From Lentimicrobium sp. (GTDB taxonomy: Bacteria > Bacteroidota > Bacteroidia > Bacteroidales > Lentimicrobiaceae): 39,913 nucleotides of DNA. A program made the position numbers and the translations under genes. The notes under the pieces are model-generated. The model was not told where the DNA came from. It made no database searches and worked only from the letters and a program-made list of their open reading frames with translations. The stretch covers positions 1 to 39,913 of the forward strand of contig JANJXJ010000060.1 in assembly GCA_024709105.1 (NCBI GenBank), in the 5' to 3' direction. This document shows, one piece after another, positions 2,924 through 18,035 of the stretch. Every line of letters begins with the position of its first letter. The stretch's first letter is position 1.

Positions 2924-3565
2924 ATGCACTATTTGAAATGTAACCATTGCGGACACTTTAACGAGGTCAAAACAAAGTATTTGGTATTTTGTGAAAGCTG
3001 CAGCAAGAAACTTGATAACACTTTTAACGAATGGGCCAATCGCAATCCGGACAAGTCGTTTGAGGATTATAAACAATTGATCTGTACAACTGAAAAAACC
3101 GATTTATCAAAGGAATTGCATAAAACCAAGAACATTAAAGGATTAAAATATTGGATTGGCTTTGCTGTTGCGTTTGCTGTTTTTTCGGTGATTGGACAAA
3201 TTGGTGGAGAAAAACTGGCTGGATTATTTCGCAAGCCTGCATTTGATAAGGCATTAATGGAGACCGCAAGTGAAATTAATAAATCCTGCCCGATTATGAT
3301 TGATAATGCAACAAGATTAGACAATGCAGTTGCATTGCCAAATGATGTATTTCAATATAATTACACATTGGTCAGCATGACTAAGGACTCTGTTAATATT
3401 GAAGAGTTAAAGGCCTATCTGGAGCCGGCAATTACAAATTTTGTGAAGACTAATCCTGACATGCAAACCATGCGGGACAATAAGGTAACTGTAAATTATT
3501 ATTATAAGGACAGAGAAGGAGTGTATTTATTCACAATATCCGTAAAACCAGAACAATATGAATGA
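2924..3565 (+). CDS. N-terminal zinc-ribbon, single-pass membrane protein of unknown function
   Basis: A 213-residue protein. It opens with a four-cysteine zinc ribbon (CNHCGHFNEVKTKY, then FCESC, residues 5-26). A charged linker follows, then one membrane helix (GLKYWIGFAVAFAVFSVIGQ, about residues 72-95), and a C-terminal extracytoplasmic domain starting ASEINKSCPIMIDNATRLDN. The INKSCP/DNATRLDNAVALP stretch looks like a conserved domain of uncharacterised Bacteroidota proteins, but I cannot name it. The ribbon probably binds Zn in the cytoplasm, with the C-terminal domain in the periplasm. It is the first gene after element B, and the following exported protein starts about 165 bp downstream. 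No enzymatic residues are apparent. Confidence 0.7.
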   Translation: MHYLKCNHCGHFNEVKTKYLVFCESCSKKLDNTFNEWANRNPDKSFEDYKQLICTTEKTDLSKELHKTKNIKGLKYWIGFAVAFAVFSVIGQIGGEKLAGLFRKPAFDKALMETASEINKSCPIMIDNATRLDNAVALPNDVFQYNYTLVSMTKDSVNIEELKAYLEPAITNFVKTNPDMQTMRDNKVTVNYYYKDREGVYLFTISVKPEQYE

Positions 3566-3731
3566 TAAAAAAGAAGCACAGACTGCACACGGTATAAATA
3601 ATCGCTGTTTCGGCAGGTAATTAATTGGTTATTGTCAGCTTTAATCCCGTACCTAAGGATGTAACTTAACAGAAAATCACCTTCAAATCCTAGCTGGCTA
3701 TGTTGCCGAACATGGGTATCAAACAAAAAAA

Positions 3732-4517
3732 ATGACCAGAACCATCCGGAAAGCTTTTATTCTTTTGATTGTAACCTTTTGGATTCATGATTTAAAAGGA
3801 CAATCAGCAATCCAGCGAGATACCTCAATAATTCATCCTGTCAAACCTAAAAGTGTCACTTTAATTAAAACGGGTGAAGTTTCTACAGACTCCATGATAC
3901 GGATTCTAAGTCTTATTTCAACCGGTATATGTGACCCGGTATATCCCAATGAATTGGGTATTTCAATGATTGGTAGCTTAAATTCTCACACTTTCGGAAT
4001 AGGACTTGATTTTAAACCCAGGTATTTTAACCGTTTTGTTGCAGATTTATTAGTTCGATCCGACTTCAGTAATAATTTTATCGTTAATTCGGGTTTGGAA
4101 ATCAAATATTTATCCAGAAGGTCACCAATTGATATCAGATTGGAATATAGCAGATACAATCTAACAAAGACAAAACTGATTGATTATCATAAATATTTAG
4201 CCGGTGTGATTTACAGGATTCCCGGGTCTTCAATGGGATTACTTATCGGTGAGGATAATTACCAGGCTAAAAACAAAATTGGCTTTGAAATATTCCATAA
4301 ATATAGGTTTAGAAAGGCAAGCAACTCATACTTTGAACCCTCTAAGCCAGTCGCAGATATCTATACCGGGATTGGCTACTGGAACAACAGGATAAATTAT
4401 AAGGTAAAGTTTGATTATCTGCTGAACTATTATATGAGGATAGGGATTGGATATGAGAGAATCTATGACTTTAATGAATTTATTCTTACTTTTAAATATG
4501 TAGTCTTTTACTTTTGA
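3732..4517 (+). CDS. Exported, probably outer-membrane beta-barrel-like protein of unknown function
   Basis: A 261-residue protein with a Sec signal peptide (AFILLIVTFWIHDLKG, cleavage near GQ at residue 24). A body of alternating strands rich in Tyr, Ile, Arg and Gly follows: HTFGIGLDFKPRYFNRFVAD, SGLEIKYLSRRSPIDIRLEY, YYMRIGIGYERIYDFNEFIL. The chain ends in aromatic residues (KYVVFYF), a common trait of outer-membrane barrels. The size would fit an 8-10 strand barrel. I recognise no named family. It follows the zinc-ribbon membrane protein on the same strand, and element C begins downstream. Its role could be structural or as a small porin or adhesin; that is inference only. Confidence 0.6.
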   Translation: MTRTIRKAFILLIVTFWIHDLKGQSAIQRDTSIIHPVKPKSVTLIKTGEVSTDSMIRILSLISTGICDPVYPNELGISMIGSLNSHTFGIGLDFKPRYFNRFVADLLVRSDFSNNFIVNSGLEIKYLSRRSPIDIRLEYSRYNLTKTKLIDYHKYLAGVIYRIPGSSMGLLIGEDNYQAKNKIGFEIFHKYRFRKASNSYFEPSKPVADIYTGIGYWNNRINYKVKFDYLLNYYMRIGIGYERIYDFNEFILTFKYVVFYF

Positions 4518-4620
4518 ATAATAAATGCCTGTTCCCGCAAGCAATGCTGCCAAAAAGGGTTTAGCTTCACAGCCGCACCATATGCCGGGGGCACACCTCC
4601 GGGGCTATTACATCAAAAAC

Positions 4621-4712
4621 CTCCGAATGTTCGGGATGCATTTGAAACACTTTACATTACACTGTGAAACTCTGTGGTAAACTCTCCCGAATTCTCGGGA
4701 TGTATGTGAAAC
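4621..4712 (+). repeat. Two ~30-bp repeats, each containing a small palindrome
   Basis: Bases 4621-4650 and 4683-4712 are diverged copies of one motif: CTCCGAATGTTCGGGATGCA versus CTCCCGAATTCTCGGGATGT and flanks, both running into TGTGAAAC-type sequence. Each contains a short hairpin (CCGAA/TTCGG and CCCGA/TCGGG). GTGAAACTCTGTG also appears twice (near 4664 and 4708). They sit downstream of the barrel-like gene and may act as terminators, but they lack long T-runs. Confidence 0.5.
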
Positions 4713-4731
4713 TCTGTGCTACTTAAAAAAT

Positions 4732-4990
4732 ATTCCAACTCAAACCAGGCCACCCATTCCGGAAAACTGGCTTTACACGGCCCGGGTGGTTTAATGTGTT
4801 ATACTTCATTTAAAGTTGAATATTCATCTTTGGAGCTTTGTGTATTTGGATAAGTTAATATTTTTCAACAGAGCTTGAACCGAAGGCCGGGCAAGCGCAT
4901 TTCTCTTAATTTCGCAAAGCCCTGTAAATCTTTTCCCTGTGTGCCAAAAAGATATGTTACAAATATTAATTTTTGTACTTTTGAATTTGA
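4732..4990 (+). repeat. Intergenic element C (degenerate, one and a half IS21-type units)
   Basis: ATTCCAACTCAAACCAGGCC plus ACCC (4732-4755) matches the third unit of element A, and a partial second unit starts at 4756 (ATTCCGG). The downstream tail shares GGAGCTTTGTGTATTTGGA (about 4832) with the GGCACCTTGTGGTATTGGA region of element B. It also shares TTGAACCGAAGGCCGGGCAA (about 4872) and TGCCAAAAAGA (about 4942) with element D. The copy is older than A and B. Confidence 0.5.
4976..4983 (+). promoter_or_regulatory. Bacteroidota-type -7 element for the ErcA-kinase pair
   Basis: TACTTTTG fits the TAnnTTTG consensus of the Bacteroidota primary sigma factor. It ends 22 bases before the ATG at 5006, giving a short leader. 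No clear -33 TTG lies at the ideal spacing. The site falls in the tail of element C, so an older repeat seems to have supplied the promoter. Confidence 0.45.
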
Positions 4991-14504: not shown

Positions 14505-15623
14505 TTATTGCTTCAACATTATATTTCGGGACAACTCTTTTTCTCCTTCTTCAATCCGTTTTAAATGACAAAATAAAAGCTGGCCGGTTTTTTCATCTCT
14601 TAAATGCATTCCGTTTCCCTCACAAAATTTATAATGTTCACAGTCAGCACATATGCCTGTCTTAGTCCAGCTTTTATCACGAAAAACAGAGTATCTGTTC
14701 TCCCATATTTCCCTGAAATTGTCTTTATAAATGTTTCCCTGAATGAAATTCTCTCTCAGGTTCGGGCAAGCTGATATTGAACCATCGGCCAATATTGAAG
14801 CAATATTTATCCCCGCCCTGCAAATAAAGAAATTATCTCTGACTTTTTGTTCGTAATTACCTAAAAATCCTTCGCAACCATAGTTTAGGTTTATCTCCCC
14901 TTCTTTTCTGGTTTGTGATATAAAATCAAACAACCCTTTAAAATTTACCGGGTTAAGTTGTAATTCTTTATGATCTTTGGCTCTGCCTGTTGGAAAAATA
15001 GTAAATATTCTCCATTCCCCGATTCCGGCTTTAATCAGCAATTCCTTGATTTGATTCAGCTCACTAAAATTTCGTTGATTTACACAGGTTACAACATCAT
15101 AAACTATTCCCGGAATTGATGGCAGCAAACGAACTGCGTTAAGCGCAGAAGAAAAACTATTTGAGTTTCCTCTCAGCCAGTTATGGCTTTCTTCTAATCC
15201 GTCAAGACTTACAGTAATTGCTCTTAGGCCGGCATCTAACAGAGATTCAATTCTATGTTTGTTTAACAACATTCCATTCGATACTATTCCCCAGGGGAAA
15301 CCTCTTTTATATAATTCAGCCCCTGTTTGTTCCAGATCTGTGCGCAGTAATGCCTCTCCTCCAGTTAATACTATCATCGTTTTATTTGGATTAACAATAC
15401 CCGATATTTCATCAATCGCTCTTAAAAAATCTTTGGCAGGCATATCCTTTACTGATGCATCTTTTTTACAATCGCTGCCGCAGTGAATACATTTCAAATT
15501 ACAACGCAAGGTACATTCCCATAGGATATAATTTAACTGGTGGATTTTACTTTCGTTGTCTTTGTATTGTTTAAATAGGTTAAGAGCAATTTTTTTGCGT
15601 AGAGAGATTCTATTTGATTTCAT
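14505..15623 (-). CDS. Radical SAM/SPASM enzyme of a radical SAM/lipoprotein system
   Basis: A 372-residue radical SAM protein. The [4Fe-4S]-SAM motif CX3CX2C is C41, C45, C48 in CTLRCNLKCIHCGSDC, followed by LTGGEAL (86-92). The C-terminal SPASM region has seven cysteines (C250, C268, C286, C325, C328, C334, C352) in the CX2CX5C arrangement with a last distant Cys, enough to bind two auxiliary clusters. Such enzymes modify peptides or proteins. The sequence and the partner gene agree with the Bacteroidota rSAM/lipoprotein system (TIGR04133 with TIGR04134, from memory). Its start overlaps the stop of the lipoprotein gene by 14 bases, so the two are co-transcribed. The likely substrate is the lipoprotein, although modification has not been shown to my knowledge. 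Confidence 0.85.
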   Translation of the reverse strand: MKSNRISLRKKIALNLFKQYKDNESKIHQLNYILWECTLRCNLKCIHCGSDCKKDASVKDMPAKDFLRAIDEISGIVNPNKTMIVLTGGEALLRTDLEQTGAELYKRGFPWGIVSNGMLLNKHRIESLLDAGLRAITVSLDGLEESHNWLRGNSNSFSSALNAVRLLPSIPGIVYDVVTCVNQRNFSELNQIKELLIKAGIGEWRIFTIFPTGRAKDHKELQLNPVNFKGLFDFISQTRKEGEINLNYGCEGFLGNYEQKVRDNFFICRAGINIASILADGSISACPNLRENFIQGNIYKDNFREIWENRYSVFRDKSWTKTGICADCEHYKFCEGNGMHLRDEKTGQLLFCHLKRIEEGEKELSRNIMLKQ

Positions 15624-16044
15624 TTTCAGGATTCAGTTTCGTGTCAAATTCTTTAGTTGCTTCACCGCTATACCAATCGCCATCACCACCTGTAAACTCA
15701 GGGTTTTTAAATTCTACAATAGTATCCAGTACATTAAATTCACCATTTGTTTCTCCATCAATATCCCTGAATTCAATATGATAGGTTTGGTCTGAAGGTG
15801 ACCCCCATTTGTCCGCAATCTGATATTCTCCCCTGGCGTTTGTAAAAGAAGTATCACCTTCCATTGACACTCTGATGTTTTCAATTGGCTGGTCGGTTAC
15901 AGATGATCTTACTTTTCCTTTAACTACAAATTTAGCAGAAGGTGTTCCATATTCATCTTTTGAATCGCAGGCTGTAGAAAATCCCAGCATTGTTAACAAT
16001 CCGGCAATCAATACGTTGTAGGTTTTAAGGAATCTGATTTTCAT
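15610..16044 (-). CDS. Lipoprotein partner of the radical SAM enzyme
   Basis: A 144-residue lipoprotein. The signal peptide ends LLTMLGFSTAC, with C26 as the lipidated residue. The next residues DSKDEYG are acidic after a Lys, like the lipoprotein export signal (K followed by D/E) that sends Bacteroidota lipoproteins to the cell surface. Residues about 40-75 (VVKGKVRSSVTDQPIENIRV, then GEYQIADKWG) form a carboxypeptidase-regulatory-like beta sandwich. The tail has GGDGDWYSGEAT (118-129), a conspicuous glycine/aromatic motif. It fits the family that I remember as TIGR04134, found next to TIGR04133 radical SAM enzymes. Apart from C26 it has no cysteine, so a Cys-based thioether is unlikely. A -7-like element lies 150 bases upstream. 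Confidence 0.78.
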   Translation of the reverse strand: MKIRFLKTYNVLIAGLLTMLGFSTACDSKDEYGTPSAKFVVKGKVRSSVTDQPIENIRVSMEGDTSFTNARGEYQIADKWGSPSDQTYHIEFRDIDGETNGEFNVLDTIVEFKNPEFTGGDGDWYSGEATKEFDTKLNPENEIK

Positions 16045-16302: not shown

Positions 16303-17310
16303 CTAATTCTTTAGTGCGTTTGGCGCCTCAGTTTCTATTTTCACTGCCCAGGTTATTTTTCTTAGTCTTTCCTGAATTATTTTTAAAGTATTTAAAATTT
16401 CGTCTTCTACAGGAAACATTCCATATACCAGATTTTTAAAATTGCCGGTATATGAGCCTCTCAGCTCATTCCAAACACTTTCCGGGTCTTTAAAAATAAG
16501 TGCTTCAGCAGGATGATGAATTAACCACTTGTTATTGTTTTTGAAACTTACCACATCATCATTGGCTACTTTCACAAGCATTTGATCAAAATCCTTTGAG
16601 TAAAAAAATGCTGAAAATTCTTTATGCATCAGCAGCTTATGTAAATCGTAGGTGTGACGTATCTTTTTCCTTAAATTGTTAACCGGGTCTGTACTATAAG
16701 AAAACCGAATCAAACTCATAATTTTTTCACAAATGGTTCTTACTGGTTCTAAAGACATTAAGTCAAATGGGAGCAATCCATTTTCTTCAGCAATCTCAGA
16801 TTGATTATTATTTAACATCATTTGTCCTGCAAACGATATGATACTTTTGGTGGTGCAAGGCTCAAAATATCCTAGCCAGGTTGATTCCAATATGATAACA
16901 TCTCTAATTTGTCCATAATCACCTTTAAATTCTTTGTTGTAAGCGTGCGCTGTTTTACGAATCATGCCCTTTTTATGCGTAATTCCTTCAATGTGAACTT
17001 CGGGCAATACGGTTTCTACAACAGTGCTAACTTCCTTTAATTTTGTTTTTAATTTGTTGTCTGTTTCACCTTCCCGCCTCAATACAATCAGGTCAATATC
17101 TTCTGAAAAACGTTCAATCAGATTATAACACTTTGATAGTGAGGTTCCTCCTTTAAACACGGTATCTTTCCCGGTTTCATTATTGAAAATGGTAAATAAG
17201 ACATAGGTTACCCAATAATCCTTTTCAACATATTCGGGCTGCAGGTTCATCTGCTGAGCGGTATACCTGATAGCATCTCTGTAAAGTGAAATGTTTTTGT
17301 GCAGTTTCAT
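16303..17310 (-). CDS. AbiEii-type nucleotidyltransferase toxin (type IV toxin-antitoxin)
   Basis: A 335-residue protein of the AbiEii/DUF1814 nucleotidyltransferase family. The signature is VFKGGTSLSKCYNLIERFSE (51-70) followed directly by DIDL, giving GG(54-55), K60 and the acidic pair D71/D73 of a DNA polymerase-beta-like active site. The conserved LRKKIRHTYDLHKLL region follows at about 214-228. Family toxins inhibit growth, often by adding nucleotides to tRNA, and are countered by an AbiEi partner. The preceding gene (17307-18035) overlaps this start by four bases and has the matching antitoxin architecture. The active-site residues are intact. Such pairs act in phage defence by abortive infection or as stabilisation modules. 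Confidence 0.85.
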   Translation of the reverse strand: MKLHKNISLYRDAIRYTAQQMNLQPEYVEKDYWVTYVLFTIFNNETGKDTVFKGGTSLSKCYNLIERFSEDIDLIVLRREGETDNKLKTKLKEVSTVVETVLPEVHIEGITHKKGMIRKTAHAYNKEFKGDYGQIRDVIILESTWLGYFEPCTTKSIISFAGQMMLNNNQSEIAEENGLLPFDLMSLEPVRTICEKIMSLIRFSYSTDPVNNLRKKIRHTYDLHKLLMHKEFSAFFYSKDFDQMLVKVANDDVVSFKNNNKWLIHHPAEALIFKDPESVWNELRGSYTGNFKNLVYGMFPVEDEILNTLKIIQERLRKITWAVKIETEAPNALKN

Positions 17311-18035
17311 TCAATGTGCCATTTTGATTTAACCGGCAAATCAGATTCATTTATGCCTAATTTGATAATAGTAAGCGGATGAAGGCTTTCTTTCAATTTT
17401 TCCAGCCCTTTCATACTGATGCCATTTTTTTCTAAAATAGCTCCTAACAAAGCCCTTACCCTTGGAGGATAGTTTAAAGCATATTTGATTAATAATTCGG
17501 TCTGCCTTTCATTAAGCTCTTTAACAATGGCACTTAATCTGCTGATTGCACGGGATACCGGACAATCGGGAATGCGTTTGATGTCTTTGAAAGCATCCAG
17601 CAATCCCAACATCTCATAGTTGTTGTCAGTTACTTCGGCGTAGCTTTTAACTGCATCGGCTTTTAGTGCGCCACTGTTGATGTTAATGCGTTTACTGCGG
17701 CTGGCAATTTTTACACGATATGCCAGTTGAGTGGTTAATCCAAGGCGATTGTATAGCGATGTGCCTGTTTCATAGGCTACCCGTTTGCCATTTTCAAACA
17801 AATAGGGCCGGAGCAGTTCGCTGTAATCGGGCTTCAATTCACCAAAAACTGTTTGCTCGGGTTTGTAAAATACGCCTTTTGACACTTTCTTAATCAATCC
17901 CTCTTTCCGAAAACGTTCCAATGCTTTGGCAGCTGTGGTATAGTCTTCTTTTGCTATACACAAATCTTCATATCCAAAGGTTTTTCCTTCGGGTAATTGT
18001 TTGATTCGTTTGCGTATTTCTGCTGCCAATGCCAT
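17307..18035 (-). CDS. AbiEi-like/DUF6088 antitoxin
   Basis: A 242-residue protein with an N-terminal winged helix (IRKRIKQLPEGKTFGYEDLC ... KALERFRKEGLIKKVSKGVF, about residues 5-55). A middle domain follows with RVAYETGTSLYNRLGLTTQL and a C-terminal helical part. It corresponds to the DUF6088/AbiEi-type antitoxins that bind their own promoter and neutralise AbiEii without forming a stable complex. The gene overlaps the toxin start by 4 bases (ATGA-type coupling). The ATG lies just four bases beyond a perfect TAACTTTG -7 element, so the mRNA is probably leaderless. A 14-bp inverted repeat over the -33 box is the likely binding site. Confidence 0.82.
   Translation of the reverse strand: MALAAEIRKRIKQLPEGKTFGYEDLCIAKEDYTTAAKALERFRKEGLIKKVSKGVFYKPEQTVFGELKPDYSELLRPYLFENGKRVAYETGTSLYNRLGLTTQLAYRVKIASRSKRININSGALKADAVKSYAEVTDNNYEMLGLLDAFKDIKRIPDCPVSRAISRLSAIVKELNERQTELLIKYALNYPPRVRALLGAILEKNGISMKGLEKLKESLHPLTIIKLGINESDLPVKSKWHIE

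Follow-up and report, generated by a model that had tools for sequence, protein, structure and literature searches.

An overlapping gene pair of Lentimicrobium sp. raises the question of which residues of a lipoprotein are modified by the radical SAM/SPASM enzyme encoded beside it, and by which reaction. The pair lies in a stretch of 39,913 nucleotides (the window), on the minus strand, where the lipoprotein gene comes first and the enzyme gene follows directly (Table 1). A previous sequence-only reading had recognized it as a TIGR04133/TIGR04134 system whose genes overlap by 14 bases. The two ORFs and their overlap were confirmed, and both proteins score above the curated cut-offs and are members of their families (enzyme, 591.6 bits against TIGR04133 (rSAM_w_lipo), cut-off 425; lipoprotein, 113.8 bits against TIGR04134 (lipo_with_rSAM), cut-off 39.8). 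The same reading described the system as one without known chemistry. Both families are already catalogued, and more can now be said on this point: the modified site is very probably xYGxP, and tyramine excision is the likely reaction. We propose that the enzyme is probably a lipoprotein splicease, which acts on -Glu31-Tyr32-Gly33-Thr-Pro- by tyramine excision. The pair is adjoined on the same strand (16303-18035) by an AbiEii-type nucleotidyltransferase gene (PF08843) and the DUF6088 gene that precedes it, which resemble a type IV toxin-antitoxin pair.

Table 1. Positions in the window of the gene pair and of the residues discussed in the text.
Feature	Position	Strand	Basis
TIGR04134 lipoprotein gene, 144 aa; proposed substrate	15610-16044	minus	ORF and profile match
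TIGR04133 radical SAM/SPASM enzyme gene, 372 aa; proposed lipoprotein splicease	14505-15623	minus	ORF and profile match
Overlap of the two genes, 14 bases	15610-15623	minus	ORF coordinates
Lipoprotein C26, expected lipidation site	15967-15969	minus	Invariant in 40 lipoproteins
Lipoprotein E31, residue X of XYG	15952-15954	minus	Position before Y32
Lipoprotein Y32-G33-T34-P35, proposed splice site	15940-15951	minus	Y, G and P invariant in 40 lipoproteins
Lipoprotein GGDGDWYSGEA, residues 119-129; interpreted as structural, within the domain	15658-15690	minus	Not invariant; confident in model
Enzyme CxxxCxxC motif (C41, C45, C48)	15480-15503	minus	Invariant in alignment of 28 enzymes
Enzyme SPASM region, C268-C352 (C268, C286, C325, C328, C334, C352)	14568-14822	minus	Pfam and alignment

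The enzyme passes the Pfam Radical_SAM and SPASM models and contains both the CxxxCxxC motif and the SPASM cysteine set. When 28 enzymes were aligned, C41, C45 and C48, which are expected to be the ligands of the SAM-binding 4Fe-4S cluster, were invariant together with the six SPASM cysteines, and C250 was nearly invariant. The earlier statement that the SPASM cysteines are complete is consistent with this. In the structural model (mean pLDDT 92.8), an N-terminal helix (res. 8-27) precedes the SAM barrel. Sequence and fold searches of the PDB returned SPASM and other radical SAM enzymes, and SkfB and SuiB were the best matches in the fold search.

The lipoprotein consists of a signal peptide, a short tether and a transthyretin-like (CarboxypepD_reg-like) domain. 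C26 is expected to be lipidated and is the sole cysteine of the mature protein, as had been claimed, and the acidic residues noticed after it are D27, D30 and E31, so that the motif reads C26-DSKD-E31-Y32-G33-T34-P35. The Pfam match to CarboxypepD_reg is weak and below threshold; in the fold search the domain is similar to the transthyretin-like domain of carboxypeptidase D, and the PDB matches have transthyretin-like, CnaB and dioxygenase folds. In the AlphaFold model (mean pLDDT 91.5), YGTP immediately precedes the first strand (res. 36-47), and confidence is lower for residues 21-30 (mean pLDDT 64) than for residues 31-40 (mean 87). The residues invariant in 40 aligned lipoproteins are C26, Y32, G33, P35, G43 and G72. 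Conservation beyond the lipobox, which had been named beforehand as a test, is therefore present.

To count the motif across the family, 136 hits with at least 250 phmmer bits were collected, and removal of copies with an identical stretch left 124 distinct enzymes. A script searched the ORFs on the same strand, as far as 2,500 nt upstream, for a lipobox-like cysteine and YGxP, and found a partner at 106 of the 124 loci. Its lipobox pattern was too strict (L057 was missed by it), and the 18 misses were inspected. Four of them are cut by contig edges and were removed (L002, L054, L104, L184), six have YGxP (L057, L125, L143, L145, L169, L189), four have YG without the proline (L081, L153, L154, L176), and at four no YGxP or YG partner was found (L107, L160, L187, L188). 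A YGxP partner is thus present at 112 of 120 informative loci (106 by script and six by eye); together these loci have 139 partner ORFs, in which the motif occurs 156 times. One of the 112, L078, is doubtful: its lipobox reads on as CYGPF, and the match to YGxP, VYGEP, lies far behind. At L107, which is among the misses, the only upstream candidate appears to be the C-terminal piece of such a lipoprotein. L187 is an exception, whose 93-aa upstream ORF is a lipoprotein with CYAPAPYDEEWY where CYGxP is expected. In the six loci added by eye, the partner is upstream in three and downstream in L125, L145 and L189. The downstream partners L145:919-1692 and L189:752-1576 start with AQ-YGAP after the signal peptide and have no lipobox cysteine in the stretch inspected; they are perhaps a non-lipidated version.

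Three controls were applied. YGxP occurs in 20 of 2,563 other mechanical ORFs of 50-250 aa from the same loci, most of which are probably not genes, in 203 of 11,200 shuffled partners, and in none of 33 TIGR04134-like proteins in loci L010-L035. Since the motif itself had served to choose the partner among the several ORFs of each locus, a motif-blind test on the immediately upstream ORF was added. For 112 of the 124 enzymes, an ORF no shorter than 45 aa ends at most 60 nt from the enzyme start, and in 99 of these 112 it contains YGxP. The pairing of lipoprotein and enzyme is far above chance, and xYGxP is strongly supported as the modified site.

The partners have little else in common. They include domain proteins, mini-lipoproteins of 51-85 aa, helical repeat proteins and proteins with a C-terminal motif; 17 of the 139 partner ORFs are no longer than 85 aa, and the smallest mini-lipoproteins have 51. 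Two or three motif copies are present in 15 partner ORFs, and the L079 partner has several EYGP-type units. In 33 of 126 partners with a recognized lipobox the tyrosine directly follows the cysteine, and elsewhere it is mostly 6-12 residues away. A signal peptide serving as recognition leader was considered and found to be a weak candidate. In 33 CYG-type partners the mean pairwise identity is 0.34 before the cysteine versus 0.26 after the motif, whereas in 61 other partners the 20 residues before the cysteine are less alike than those after the motif (0.20 versus 0.30). As the two groups give opposite signals, such a role is not claimed.

Several further arrangements were observed. The genome that contains the window has a second pair, of the CYGTP type (FQACYGTPRDFDPDV; G000:C52:3-463 in L003, L006 and L126; G000:C140:1-819 in L002 and L127), whose enzyme shows up as one piece at the end of each of two contigs, probably parts of a single gene. 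At L009 (G172:C2), two family lipoproteins, with EYGSPSAKF and MYGAIQIVKF, lie away from the enzyme gene, which in that genome is on another contig with its own partner; it is possible that they are substrates in trans. Downstream of the enzyme, a same-strand ORF of at least 50 aa lies within -40 to 60 nt in 42 of 124 loci. Those noticed by eye are substrate-like in L125, L189, L154 and L176, and others recur only in similar loci (L141/L142/L146 and L036/L123).

In a sample of 295 genomes from the order, TIGR04133 is above its cut-off in 61 (66 match at E 1e-80); in a class sample of 395 genomes it is so in 6. TIGR04134 is above cut-off in four of the latter 395, all within the six with TIGR04133. 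In the remaining two, G141 and G359, YGxP partners below the TIGR04134 cut-off adjoin the enzyme (L038, L040). The enzyme is thus not usually found without its lipoprotein, as the pair interpretation requires. The pair also occurs in records labelled Spirochaetota (L064, L078, L122) and Hydrogenedentota (L065).

The proposed chemistry comes from a neighbouring family. We take PlpX to be a member of TIGR04103. On Nostoc plasmid C057 (L121), a TIGR04103 enzyme (853 bits, cut-off 725) neighbours a Nif11 precursor with the C-terminus ALYGLPPELF and is followed by a 71-aa ORF, which from its place would be PlpY. EYGTPSAKF of the window and LYGLPPELF of Nostoc agree in the tyrosine, the glycine, the proline and the aromatic residue at +7. 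The window enzyme is 27.6% identical to the Nostoc enzyme and scores 147.4 bits against TIGR04103, far under the cut-off of 725, so it is no member by that model. As in PlpX-type clusters, a substrate candidate with XYG adjoins the enzyme (EYGTP in P0002). PlpX is described as a SPASM radical SAM enzyme that works together with PlpY, a truncated RRE, and belongs to a cluster whose leaders are Nif11- or nitrile-hydratase-like (PMC11002830), and PlpXY is reported to convert X of XYG by tyramine excision (PMC10533398). In the latter study, tags ending RPGYGLPI were accepted in extended form at two FtsZ sites, most FtsZ tag variants, including LYGLPI ones, were not accepted, and one PlpA-type tag is ...GYGVVFP, so that proline is no rule of the known reaction (PMC10533398).

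The relation was also examined in two trees. The second has 41 rows, namely 21 of TIGR04133, 12 of TIGR04103/TIGR03913 and nearby enzymes, and 8 of an outgroup (PqqE, MftC, NirJ, NirJ2-type, TIGR04053, pseudo-SAM and two Paenibacillus enzymes). In this tree the first two sets are split from the 8 others with 97/90 support, and PqqE and MftC are on very long branches. The first tree, with other outgroups, left the grouping of TIGR04133 with TIGR04103 undecided; two of its heme rows, L196 and L197, are probably wrong ORFs (branch length 6.36). They were dropped from the second tree with the TIGR04133 rows L043, L046 and L067, and the outgroups L200-L203 were added.

A YG protein resembling a substrate is present at 7 of 13 loci of the neighbouring clade (L136, L192, L134, L124, L132, L190, L121). 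In L136 (G073:C3), the ORF just 3' of the enzyme at 3428-4879, a TIGR04103/TIGR03913 relative, encodes 214 aa in which KYGYPC occurs five times and KYGYPGC stands at the end, and it looks like a multi-core substrate. L192 has the C-terminus ...VMYGTGVRM, and L134 has ...LYGTPPVPLY near its C-terminus. In L124 (Aureibacter), L132 and L190 (Azospirillum), small proteins with P/LYG motifs lie beside TIGR03913-type enzymes; those of L124 and L190 have a DUF1843 annotation or match and that of L132 is alike, and these DUF1843 proteins may be splicease substrates too. L138 and L139 have only doubtful YG ORFs, and no YG ORF was found within 700 nt at L133, L135, L137 and L191.

Tyramine excision at E31-Y32-G33 is proposed because of the Nostoc motif match, the chemistry of PlpXY, the tree grouping and the YG proteins of the neighbouring clade; the reaction chemistry, its timing, the surface display and the purpose are inferred. 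The enzyme would act on -Glu31-Tyr32-Gly33-Thr-Pro- before the prelipoprotein leaves the cytosol, and would excise a piece of one tyrosine (tyramine) at E31-Y32-G33, leaving a reactive spot. The modified protein would then be exported and lipidated on Cys26, and the reactive ketoamide would sit in the short tether that joins the anchor to the folded domain, five residues away from the anchor. As a guess, its purpose might be covalent capture of a nucleophile, for instance to trap a protease or to attach the protein to an amine.

Other sites and other reactions have to be weighed against this proposal. The sequence-only reading had placed the modification in a Trp-Tyr/Gly tail. The window protein does contain GGDGDWYSGEA, and a W..G tail occurs in 48 of the 112 nearest partners (56 of 112 have a Trp anywhere behind the motif). 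However, the alignment that had been suggested as a check on GGDGDWY puts all invariant residues outside the tail, the W..G tail is absent from aligned CYGxP partners and mini-lipoproteins, and AlphaFold predicts a confidently placed loop and strand here (E125-132; residue blocks 111-130 at 94-97), apparently part of the folded domain. The tail was rejected as the site and is very improbable. A Cys-thioether was also rejected; the sequence-only reading had already doubted it, and X is cysteine in only 24% of the motif copies, which makes it improbable as a general product. That the lipoprotein is no substrate and the genes are merely co-transcribed is scarcely credible. No biochemistry of the pair was found in the openly available literature, which leaves room for this explanation, but partners of unrelated build retain xYGxP, some of them in several copies.

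Conservation of YGxP would equally be expected from other Tyr-Gly chemistry. A fixed aromatic followed by a small residue suits the aromatic-X-X motif of cyclophane maturases. In a three-residue cyclophane (a triceptide-type C-C bond), the Tyr ring would be joined to the beta-carbon of the second following residue in Y-G-x, and the residue at +2 bears a beta-carbon in 154 of 156 copies. The two exceptions have glycine (KYGGPTADY in L066, KYGGPPVDY in L148), although other copies there could be the substrate. Among 130 immediate upstream ORFs, YG.P is found in 99 and WG.P in 7 but FG.P and HG.P in none, and the enzyme groups with TIGR04103/TIGR03913 in the second tree. These observations speak against a cyclophane, which we consider quite unlikely. 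Another modification of xYGxP, such as a crosslink from Tyr to a distant residue, oxidation of Pro or Gly, or epimerisation, is favoured by a proline almost as constant as Tyr-Gly and by a Y or F at +7, which 58% of the 153 sufficiently long copies have. This aromatic is not required, however, four loci have YG without Pro, and for the known reaction beside the neighbouring family only XYG is given as the motif (PMC10533398), so such a modification seems rather unlikely. Tyramine excision by a lipoprotein splicease remains the preferred explanation.

No statement of site or reaction for TIGR04133/TIGR04134 was found in the openly available literature, and an earlier description in print is possible; a survey of spliceases, reportedly by Scott et al. 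in Chem in 2022, may include the TIGR04133 family. For a catalogued enzyme family that had no assigned chemistry, the present analysis supplies a defined site and a reaction that can be tested. It is conceivable, though we hold it tentatively, that a large Bacteroidota-centred splicease family acts on membrane-anchored lipoproteins without PlpY and places ketoamides in the envelope beside the lipid, and that in the CYGxP branch the lipidated Cys becomes an alpha-keto-beta-amino acid. If this is true, many gut, rumen and environmental Bacteroidota and some spirochaetes would have a reactive ketone on their lipoproteins, and the CYGxP branch would have a new kind of lipoprotein N-terminus. Ketoamides of the splicease type are reported as protease inhibitors (PMC11117315, PMC10373908), and labelling of ketoamides by tetrazines is demonstrated for Gly-derived ones (PMC10533398). 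Given such labelling, the modification may be detectable in cells.

The pair can be compared with several known systems. SkfB and SuiB, which are not among the rows of the second tree, resemble the enzyme model in fold, and the SPASM maturases PqqE and MftC fall outside the TIGR04133/TIGR04103/TIGR03913 clade in the second tree; the substrates and chemistry of all four differ from those proposed for TIGR04133. The spliceotide systems, PlpX/PlpY of Pleurocapsa and TIGR04103, likewise have a radical SAM/SPASM enzyme beside a substrate gene, and xYGxP with the +7 aromatic is shared with Nostoc L121. In contrast, the PlpX substrate is a peptide with a Nif11 or nitrile-hydratase leader and PlpY is involved, whereas TIGR04133 has a prelipoprotein. 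The window lipoprotein has no Nif11 or NHLP leader but a lipoprotein signal peptide, and a phmmer search of 189 loci with the Nostoc 71-aa ORF, a single diverged query that found only itself and that a diverged RRE could escape, gave no PlpY-like ORF. The TIGR03913 GDL-motif maturase is a neighbour in the clade, and its small DUF1843 partners have a YG motif near the start; compared with TIGR04133, the enzyme is longer and the partners are short and lack a lipobox. The names of the NCBIfam models TIGR04133 and TIGR04134 state neither chemistry nor site, and the partner set found here is wider than the TIGR04134 model, including mini-lipoproteins and repeat proteins as well.
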